Position numbers and translations under genes: made by a program. A DNA stretch of 12,834 nt, from NCBI GenBank assembly GCA_001803565.1, contig MHDQ01000288.1, forward strand, positions 1-12,834. The letters are read 5' to 3'. Positions 46 to 10,401 of the stretch are shown here, one piece after another. Within the stretch, counting starts at the first letter, position 1. Every line of letters starts with the position of its first letter. Under the pieces are notes generated by a model, which was given only the letters and a program-made list of their open reading frames with translations, made no database searches and was not told the origin of the DNA. The stretch comes from Nitrospinae bacterium RIFCSPLOWO2_12_FULL_45_22 (lineage in GTDB: Bacteria; 2-12-FULL-45-22).

Positions 46-177
46 AGGGTTCAGGAAAAGACTTTAAATTTTGTATAGTTATCGCTAGTTGTAAATAGCG
101 CGAAGGTTTAATAGCCCGTAGAGGTATTTGGGGAAGAGCCTCCTGACAACTAATCCCTGACCCCGGTGAACTGTTAC
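46..177. repeat. Split copy of the GTGAACxGTTAC palindromic element
   Basis: Bases 46-64 (AGGGTTCAGGAAAAGACTT) and 142-177 (from CCTGACAAC to the terminal GTGAACTGTTAC) match adjacent parts of the element at 9492-9572 with a few differences. In this copy they are separated by about 77 bases (65-141), which contain a small hairpin, CGCTA/TAGCG. The left terminal GTAACAGTTCAC seen in the other copy is missing, so this copy is truncated on the left as well as interrupted. Confidence 0.6.
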
Positions 178-6664: not shown

Positions 6665-6785
6665 AAAGGTAACCGTTCACCCATTTATTCCATCGTATTG
6701 TCATTCTGAGCGATAGCGAAGAATCTTTTTCTTTTAAGACCCCTCGCTCTGCTCAGGGTGACAGATCCAGTGAACGGTTACCTTT
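6665..6785. repeat. Nested palindromic element with 16-bp perfect inverted ends
   Basis: AAAGGTAACCGTTCAC (6665-6680) and GTGAACGGTTACCTTT (6770-6785) are perfect inverted copies enclosing 89 bases. Inside is a second, imperfect inverted pair: TGTCATTCTGAGC...AGCGAAGA near 6700-6722 against CTCGCTCTGCTCAGGGTGACA near 6743-6763. The inner unit resembles a dispersed repeat I recall from many environmental bacterial genomes. The outer ends match the element at 9492-9572. There is no coding capacity, so it is non-autonomous if mobile. Confidence 0.75.
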
Positions 6786-7136: not shown

Positions 7137-7496
7137 ATGGCAAAGACGTTGTATGTAGGGAATGTTTCTCCCCAAGCAAGTGAGAATGATTTATTAGAAC
7201 TCTTCCAACAAGCTGGTCCAGTAGACTCTATCCGGGTACTAAAAGATCCCCATTCTGGTATATCAAGGGGGTTTGGTTTTGTGGAGATGGCTAACCAGGA
7301 AGATGCCCAAAGGGCAATTAGCATGTTCAACAATCATCGTTTAAAAGATAAAGAACTGATCGTCAATGAGGCCCGGCCTAGGCGTCCTGTTGACCGACCC
7401 GGTCGCAGCAGCGGTGGTGGTGGCCGGAGGGATTATTTTTCTGGGGGTGCCGGTCGCAGCAGCGGTGGTGGTGGTGGTGGCCGGAAGAGATACTAA
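7137..7496 (+). CDS. RRM-domain RNA-binding protein with Gly/Arg-rich tail
   Basis: Small single-RRM protein of 119 residues, like the cyanobacterial Rbp and other bacterial glycine-rich RNA-binding proteins. RNP2 is LYVGNV (residues 4-9) and RNP1 is RGFGFVEM (about 44-51), both retaining the aromatic residues that stack on RNA. The RRM ends near residue 80 (VNEARPRR). A low-complexity tail follows, made of two GRSSGGGG units, a DYF insert and a basic end (GGRKRY). Such proteins are often cold-induced and act as RNA chaperones in the cytoplasm. AAGGGAGGT at 7122-7130 supports ATG 7137. The gene has its own promoter and leader hairpin, and rpsU follows by 155 bases on the same strand, so co-transcription is possible. 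Confidence 0.92.
   Translation: MAKTLYVGNVSPQASENDLLELFQQAGPVDSIRVLKDPHSGISRGFGFVEMANQEDAQRAISMFNNHRLKDKELIVNEARPRRPVDRPGRSSGGGGRRDYFSGGAGRSSGGGGGGRKRY
7401..7485 (+). repeat. Direct DNA repeat encoding the Gly-rich tail
   Basis: GGTCGCAGCAGCGGTGGTGG begins at 7401 and again at 7452, and each copy ends in GGCCGGA. The second copy carries two extra GGT triplets. This is the sort of tract that lengthens and shortens by slippage without shifting frame. Confidence 0.75.
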
Positions 7497-8721: not shown

Positions 8722-9495
8722 ATGGGAAAAGTATTATTAACCGCTGATTATCCTTACCCAGAGAAATTGGGCTGCCTGGCCAGACTGAGACCCCGGAGCC
8801 AGATAGTGGGCCTGTTAGGTTATGTCATCTCCGTAGTCTCGGTTCCTACCGCAGATTTTTTTGGGCTGAGCAGGCATTTTCTATTGCTCTGCATCATTAT
8901 TGCGCTAGCCCGGGTATCTATCCCTTTTCTTTTAAAGAGGTGCCTGGTCTTATTCCCTTTTGTCTTTCTGGTAGCGGCCTTCATCCCTTTTCTCAAGGAA
9001 GGAAGGGTATTGGTGGAGTTCGACCTCCCAGTTATCAAGCTGGGGCTGACTGAAGAAGGCCTCTTGCTCTTCCTTACGGTTTCTTTTAAGGCCCTTTTGT
9101 CCTTTTTGGCCCTGACGACCCTGATGGCTATCTGCCCTTTTCCCCAACTCCTCAAGGCATTGGAGAGGCTGAAGATACCCCGGATATTGCTTGTGATGCT
9201 CTCGATACTCTACCGCTATCTCCTGATCCTCCTGGAAGAGGGGCAGAGGATAATGCTGGCCCGCGATATCCGATATTTTGGTGGCCACTACAAAGAACAG
9301 CCCCGCATATTGGGAAATATGCTTGGCAGTATATTTATAAGGACTTATGAGCGGGCCGAGCGGGTCTATGGCGCTATGCTAGTACGGGGTTACCAGGGGC
9401 GGGTAGTGATTTTAGAAGAAAACAAGGCCACCTATAGAGATTTTATCTTTTTGCTGATCATTCTAACTACCCTTATATGCATCCAGCTATGGTAA
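8722..9495 (+). CDS. cbiQ: ECF nickel/cobalt transporter T component (CbiQ/NikQ)
   Basis: Transmembrane coupling subunit of a group I energy-coupling-factor importer, 257 residues with about five hydrophobic segments between residues 28 and 160 plus one at the C-terminus. The cytoplasmic helices that contact the ATPases carry the two expected short motifs: LARDIRYFG (ARD where ARG is common) and AMLVRGYQG. No clear ribosome site precedes ATG 8722; the 158-base gap from nikR leaves room for a separate promoter, but none is obvious. The last codons are altered by a palindromic element: the stop TAA at 9493-9495 lies inside the element's first bases. Without it the gene would end CTA TGA, overlapping cbiO. 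Nickel is favoured over cobalt because nikR is adjacent. Confidence 0.92.
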   Translation: MGKVLLTADYPYPEKLGCLARLRPRSQIVGLLGYVISVVSVPTADFFGLSRHFLLLCIIIALARVSIPFLLKRCLVLFPFVFLVAAFIPFLKEGRVLVEFDLPVIKLGLTEEGLLLFLTVSFKALLSFLALTTLMAICPFPQLLKALERLKIPRILLVMLSILYRYLLILLEEGQRIMLARDIRYFGGHYKEQPRILGNMLGSIFIRTYERAERVYGAMLVRGYQGRVVILEENKATYRDFIFLLIILTTLICIQLW

Positions 9496-9572
9496 CAGTT
9501 CACGGAGTTCAGGTAACAGGGTTCAGGAAAAGACTTCCCGACAACTGATCCCTGAACCCAGTGAACTATTAC
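9492..9572. mobile_element. Palindromic miniature element at the cbiQ/cbiO junction
   Basis: The ends GTAACAGTTCAC (9492-9503) and GTGAACTATTAC (9561-9572) are inverted copies matching at 11 of 12 positions. An inner pair, GGGTTCAGG (about 9520) and CCCTGAACCC (9550-9559), makes the whole 81-base unit able to fold. It is flanked by 13-base direct copies of GCATCCAGCTATG at 9479-9491 and 9576-9588. This is consistent with a target duplication, with three extra bases (TAG) on the right. It encodes nothing, so any movement would need a transposase supplied elsewhere. Confidence 0.7.
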
Positions 9573-9585
9573 TAGGCATCCAGCT

Positions 9586-10401
9586 ATGATAGGTGTGAAA
9601 CCGGCTATAAAGGTCACTAACTTGAGGTATTCGTATCCAGATAAGACATTGGGCCTGAATGGTATAACCTTCGAGATAACAGAGAAAGAGCTTGTTTGCT
9701 TCATTGGTACCAATGGATCGGGTAAGACCACTTTACTGCTGAATCTAATGGGTATATTGGTAGGCGAAGGCGAGATAGAGATATTGGGGAGTCGGCTGCA
9801 AAAGAAGAACCAGCGCGAGATCTGGCGCCAAATGGGATTCTTATTCCAGAACCCGGACGATCAACTGTTTTCCCTTACGGTTCAGGATGATGTGACCTTT
9901 GGCCCTTTGAATATGGGCTGGCCCCGAGAAAGGGTTTTACAAGCCTCAGCAAAGGCCCTGAGTCAGGTAGGGCTGGATGGTTTTCAAGGGCGATCTCCCC
10001 ATCGGCTCAGCTTCGGAGAGAAGAAAAGGGTAGGATTAGCTTCTATCCTGGCTATGGAGCCCAGGATTCTTCTGCTTGACGAACCTACAGCCGGTTTAGA
10101 CCCCCGCAGCTCTACAGAATTCATTGATCTCCTGGATGATCTTCATCACCAGGGTAAGACTATCCTGGTGGCCACTCATGACCTACACCTGGTCTATGAA
10201 ATAGCCCAGCGGGTTATGGTTTTGGGGGAGAATAAAACGATAGTAGCCGAGGGTGACCCTCGAAAACTGCTGCGAGACTCTGAGCTTCTCCTAAAAAATA
10301 ATCTGATCCATCAGCACCGCCACGGGCATCGCCGCACAACCCATATCCATCACCACTACCACCTGGGACATGAGCATCATTTAGAAGAGAGAACAGAGTA
10401 A
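9586..10401 (+). CDS. cbiO: ECF nickel/cobalt transporter ATPase (CbiO/NikO) with His-rich tail
   Basis: Cytoplasmic ATPase of 271 residues driving metal import. Motifs: Walker A GTNGSGKTT (41-49), Q-loop FQNPDDQLF, which is diagnostic of ECF ATPases, signature LSFGEKKR, Walker B RILLLDEP, D-loop GLD and switch ATHDL. After the ATPase core, residues 241-265 contain 12 histidines in runs such as HQHRHGH and HIHHHYH, which should bind Ni or similar metals. ATG 9586 lies inside the right-hand 13-base duplicate flanking the palindromic element. No good ribosome site precedes it, in keeping with an ancestral ATGA overlap with cbiQ and translational coupling that the insertion has since stretched by about 90 bases. 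Its stop overlaps the cbiM start by one base (TAATG). Confidence 0.94.
   Translation: MIGVKPAIKVTNLRYSYPDKTLGLNGITFEITEKELVCFIGTNGSGKTTLLLNLMGILVGEGEIEILGSRLQKKNQREIWRQMGFLFQNPDDQLFSLTVQDDVTFGPLNMGWPRERVLQASAKALSQVGLDGFQGRSPHRLSFGEKKRVGLASILAMEPRILLLDEPTAGLDPRSSTEFIDLLDDLHHQGKTILVATHDLHLVYEIAQRVMVLGENKTIVAEGDPRKLLRDSELLLKNNLIHQHRHGHRRTTHIHHHYHLGHEHHLEERTE

Follow-up and report, generated by a model that had tools for sequence, protein, structure and literature searches.

The analyzed stretch of DNA (in the following, the window) comprises positions 1–12,834 of contig MHDQ01000288.1 from Nitrospinae bacterium RIFCSPLOWO2_12_FULL_45_22 and harbors a gene cluster in the order NikR-cbiQ-cbiO-cbiM, in which a short palindromic element sits at the cbiQ/cbiO boundary. 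The cbiQ gene (8722–9495, forward strand) encodes a product matching the Pfam family CbiQ (E 1e-31), the membrane subunit of energy-coupling factor (ECF)-type metal transporters, and the product of cbiO (9586–10,401, forward strand) matches ABC_tran (E 4e-27), representing an ABC ATPase; CbiM is encoded next after cbiO. The genes cbiQ and cbiO are nickel/cobalt-transporter genes.

The element at the cbiQ-cbiO junction

The region between the two genes is occupied by an imperfect, near-continuous palindrome of 81 nt, GTAACAGTTCAC...GTGAACTATTAC (9492–9572, forward strand), which has no coding capacity and is bounded by 12-nt terminal inverted repeats with one mismatch. A preliminary description of this DNA had reported an 81-base palindrome between perfect 13-base copies. 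Both are present, the 13-nt sequence GCATCCAGCTATG being exact at 9479–9491 and 9576–9588, but the repeat is in fact longer: read outward from the element ends, it comprises 16 nt, namely TATGCATCCAGCTATG (9476–9491) on the left and TAGGCATCCAGCTATG (9573–9588) on the right, both on the forward strand and directly abutting the element. The two copies agree at 15 of 16 positions, a match that would arise by chance at a fixed position with a probability of ~1e-8. The left copy contains the last cbiQ codons and a relict cbiO ATG (9489–9491), and the right copy, with the one mismatch, provides the current cbiO start (ATG, 9586–9588). Because the repeat reaches up to both element ends, the extra TAG formerly described to the right of the element does not exist as a separate feature; its three bases open the right duplicate.

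When the flanks are joined with one duplicate kept, the sequence reads ...ATC CAG CTA TGA TAG G (...CAGCTATGATAGG), in which the cbiQ stop codon TGA is overlapped by the cbiO start codon ATG, giving an ATGA junction exactly as had been proposed for removal of the unit. The putative empty site, ...GCATCCAGCTATGATAGGTGTG, stays a reconstruction, since no CbiQ match was found in the other of the two genomes compared from this phylum and no near relative was therefore at hand for comparison. A search for the element in 20 sampled relatives found no copy. In a set of 27 distantly related CbiQ loci followed by an ABC gene, a 4-nt overlap of cbiQ and cbiO was the commonest junction type, being found in 16 pairs (14 ATGA and 2 GTGA), and the reconstructed overlap thus agrees with the usual arrangement in distant homologues.

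In the occupied junction, cbiQ reads ...CTA TGG TAA, because the element starts with G-TAA. The stop codon (TAA, 9493–9495) is the element's own, and CbiQ is extended from 256 to 257 amino acids by an additional C-terminal Trp. The spacer between the cbiQ stop and the cbiO start now amounts to 90 nt, and the 13 bases preceding the cbiO ATG are equal in the left and right duplicates except for one. The frames therefore read as the preliminary description had stated, with a substitute stop codon from the element end and a duplicated ATG for cbiO, and both genes are left readable by a coincidence of sequence. The old cbiO ATG opens a relict frame (9489–9548, forward strand) that reads 19 codons into the element to a TGA and represents a possible leader. 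As a prediction, this frame, if translated, could bring ribosomes into the hairpin and toward the new cbiO start. The effect on the translational coupling of cbiQ and cbiO, put forward in the preliminary description as a loss, is likewise a prediction: the 90-nt gap and the hairpin in the mRNA would weaken the coupling or, via the relict frame, partly keep it.

Family copies, target duplications and element size

The source genome, a metagenome-assembled genome (MAG) of 3.67 Mb in 321 contigs (85% complete), was searched for further copies. Matches to the element comprised 77 alignment pieces, corresponding to dozens of related copies, which adjoin many different genes. The terminal 12-mer GTAACNGTTCAC, with at most one mismatch, was found 132 + 118 times (~250 matches), compared to 12 + 15 (27) for the reversed pattern serving as control, and a pattern requiring both ends 112–142 nt apart recovered 13 full-length copies versus none in the control.

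Direct repeats of 8 nt (≤1 mismatch) flank 19 of the 35 paired copies in the source genome and 10 of 13 copies in other MAGs, which are named as other bacterial groups; mispaired flanks gave values of 0.0000 and 0.019, respectively. Agreement of the flanks across the element ends peaks sharply in one register only (n = 8), indicating transposition with an 8-nt target duplication. The check previously suggested, that copies elsewhere in the genome should carry flanking duplications, was thus positive, with a length of 8 nt. Copies of the source genome devoid of a duplication are presumably old or rearranged. Being short and non-coding, with terminal inverted repeats and dispersed copies that carry target duplications, the window copy is a miniature inverted-repeat transposable element (MITE).

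Regarding its own footprint, the window copy is the exception, since a 16-nt repeat was found in 0 of 47 other copies. This duplication may be a composite, originating from one or more 8-nt insertions, with the flank doubled afterwards by recombination or slippage, and the length of exactly 2 × 8 nt, unmatched among the other copies, is in accordance with such a history. Several extra steps would be needed, however, and it is simpler to assume one insertion with a stagger of 16 nt, though this would be unique here. The composite origin is therefore considered possible but the less likely of the two, and somewhat more weight is given to a single wide-stagger insertion.

The element is also compact. 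Copies of its subfamily are mostly 134–183 nt long, with a single 228-nt copy containing an insert, and the family as a whole ranges from 48 to 228 nt without coding capacity. The window copy aligns to the left 45 and right 36 nt of full-length copies with 86–91% identity, separated by a clean internal gap that corresponds to their middle part. In full copies, the break falls at the near-repeats GAAAAGACTT (left) and GAAAAGCTT (right), which suggests that the 81-nt form may have arisen from a copy of ~144–159 nt by deletion between short direct repeats. Another compact copy (C72) is similar in form.

Three copies (L040, L042, and L048) were found in the MAG PFIF01, named Deltaproteobacteria CG_4_8_14_3_um_filter_43_13. 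L040 is 79–88% identical to copies of the source genome, which among themselves have a mean identity of 86%, while the CbiQ proteins share merely 31%. This likeness despite CbiQ divergence reflects either horizontal spread or a binning error.

IS66 as candidate mobilizer and alternative origins

The earlier proposal that a miniature element was inserted exactly into the stop–start overlap is supported by the family copies, the duplications, the two intact genes, and the overlap recovered from the joined flanks. In all probability, the unit represents a non-autonomous MITE of the insertion sequence (IS) type IS66, which entered the ATGA overlap, duplicated its target, and was shortened by internal deletion. 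An IS66-family transposase would recognize the 12-nt ends in trans, and insertion would have split the cbiQ stop codon within the overlap after its G, duplicating 16 nt of target at this site compared to 8 nt elsewhere in the family. The element's G-TAA would then end cbiQ, and the right duplicate would provide the cbiO ATG together with its 13 preceding bases, of which at most one is changed.

IS66 elements are described to feature inverted repeats of 20–30 bp beginning with GTAAGCG and direct repeats of 8 bp (PMC11946415). The family resembles them in its ends beginning with GTAAC, in its 8-nt duplications, and in an identical 12-nt end at the resident IS66 gene. It differs in being non-coding, in its size of 48–228 nt, in a terminal identity of 12–15 nt, and in the 16-nt duplication of the window copy. 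The family end GTAACNGTTCAC has GTAA in common with the IS66 consensus GTAAGCG, and the following bases differ. A single IS66 transposase gene exceeding the Pfam cut-off (PF03050, zf-IS66) was detected in the source genome (L072, 484–2172; G000:C275), and its start is preceded, at a distance of 133 bp, by an exact GTAACCGTTCAC end. The gene passes through an NNNN scaffold gap into unrelated sequence. Since the right end is lost in this gap, IS66 would be the best candidate for mobilization of the family rather than a proven one.

The sequence beyond the gap resembles an HD-GYP fragment, likely representing a mis-scaffold at a repeat. A complete IS66 element at C275, spanning 2036 bp between matching ends, was considered and rejected, as its frame crosses the NNNN gap into an unrelated protein and what looked like its right end is part of a different short element. 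Ends like those of the family were not found at the IS66 genes of other element-bearing MAGs, and the inspection of 20 stretches with unpaired GTAACCGTTCAC ends for larger elements yielded no convincing transposon-sized pair with matching 8-nt duplications. In the source genome, the 12-nt GTAACCGTTCAC end is also joined to several unrelated cores of the GCCACCAAGAC, CACAGAGAACGCAGAG, and TCATTCTGAG types (L207, L216, L206, L212, L213, L218, L063, and L076), some of them with 8-nt duplications; numerous distinct passengers seem to have been dispersed by a single set of ends.

Several points weigh against an IS66-type MITE. The duplication of the window copy measures 16 instead of 8 nt, and its flanks, compared over the 8 nt next to the element, agree at no more than 4 of 8 positions, so that this copy lacks the 8-bp direct repeats of IS66, whereas the family as a whole carries them. 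An empty site from a near relative is missing. The assembly gap in the IS66 gene leaves its right end and own duplication unseen, and the element shares just 12–15 terminal bases with the IS66 end, compared to the 20–30 bp described for IS66 repeats (PMC11946415). Finally, the source genome is a MAG assembly of 85% completeness.

It is conceivable, though improbable, that the MITE was moved by another DDE transposase family producing 8-nt duplications and recognizing GTAAC ends. The single and incomplete IS66 copy, the limited terminal likeness of 12–15 nt, and the absence of an IS66 match in five of the seven other element-bearing MAGs (including G021 and G023) are compatible with such a mobilizer. 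On the other hand, the upstream end of the IS66 gene is exactly GTAACCGTTCAC, and the combination of GTAA with 8-nt repeats is what characterizes IS66 in the literature (PMC11946415).

Dispersal as a palindrome of the repetitive extragenic palindromic (REP)/REPIN type by a RAYT (Y1) transposase would account for the palindromic, intergenic, and high-copy nature of the element, and five PF01797 (Y1_Tnp) matches exist in the source genome. Transposition by Y1 HUH enzymes generates no target duplication and does not involve terminal inverted repeats with fixed ends. Since numerous copies show exact 8-nt target duplications, a RAYT/REP origin was rejected as highly improbable. Hardly any probability is likewise assigned to a conserved, non-mobile regulatory RNA hairpin of the cbi operon: the stem between the cistrons is indeed stable (segment 9479–9588, −40.1 kcal/mol, z = −4.7 versus shuffles), but copies are dispersed beside many other genes, the segment yielded no Rfam family match and no terminator-like or promoter-like site, and distant cbiQ-cbiO junctions are mostly devoid of a spacer.

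Position relative to genes and relation to known elements

In the window copy and four others (L122, L126, L150, and L154), a long reading frame is terminated by the TAA of the element terminus, the resulting proteins being up to 19 codons shorter or one codon longer. Among 17 copies of the source genome located between co-directional genes, 10 lie inside or within 8 nt of the 3′ end of the upstream gene, compared to ~4 expected for a uniform position in the spacer, which is a rough and generous estimate for a small, hand-read sample of predicted open reading frames. This clustering fits selection sparing promoters and ribosome-binding sites; a choice of target is not required. A search among the copies examined for further insertions into ATGA overlaps was negative. 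One candidate, L149 (C155:3397–3459), was discarded, as its upstream gene stops at TAG and the ATG of the duplicate is out of the downstream frame. That a widespread and hitherto undescribed IS66-type MITE group is tuned to operon junctions, with G-TAA and the duplication permitting gene-sparing entry into the 3′ ends of genes and even stop–start overlaps, and with an occasional duplication of 16 nt, is regarded as a rather doubtful generalization.

Two further elements reside in the window. A family copy longer than the 81-nt element (46–177, reverse strand) lies upstream of an epimerase gene, its right end (166–177) being intact and its left terminus missing. An element with a different core, TCATTCTGAGCG...GCGAAGAATCT, is located at 6669–6781 (forward strand) and features perfect termini (GTAACCGTTCAC/GTGAACGGTTAC) without an 8-nt duplication; its inverted repeat reaches AAAGGTAACC...GGTTACCTTT. 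In addition, an exact 25-nt direct repeat with a spacing of 51 was observed at 7399–7474, where it encodes the tail, rich in Gly and Arg, of a small RNA-binding protein of the RRM type.

The Correia/NEMIS and ERIC elements possess ends and target duplications unlike those of the window element. They resemble it as short palindromes transcribed with neighboring genes as stable hairpins, and RNase III or RNase E effects have been documented for them (PMC10969869). MITEAba12 is comparable in that its parent IS was assigned via shared ends and duplication length, without internal similarity, and in containing stop codons; it differs in its relation to ISAba12 and its 9-bp duplications (PMC6382973). 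Chunjie, a MITE of Geobacter uraniireducens (Chen et al. 2008), is reported in a review to be multicopy and to include partial copies and variants of different size (PMC10969869). Its length of 178–235 nt contrasts with the 81 nt found here, and no relatedness is claimed. The same review makes no mention of IS66, and no description of an IS66-related MITE was found in open-access titles, abstracts, and passages, which is weak evidence of absence.

That a MITE can enter an operon and leave it unbroken has already been described for Chunjie, and the window copy clearly illustrates this familiar process, its footprint being oddly long. This double-length footprint (16 versus 8 nt) poses a small mechanistic question and is the one unexplained point. 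The cbiQ-cbiO junction provides a base-level example of how a small transposon enters a 4-nt gene overlap in an operon with both frames intact, and a high-copy MITE group with IS66-like ends is documented in an almost unsampled phylum as well as in MAGs named as other groups.
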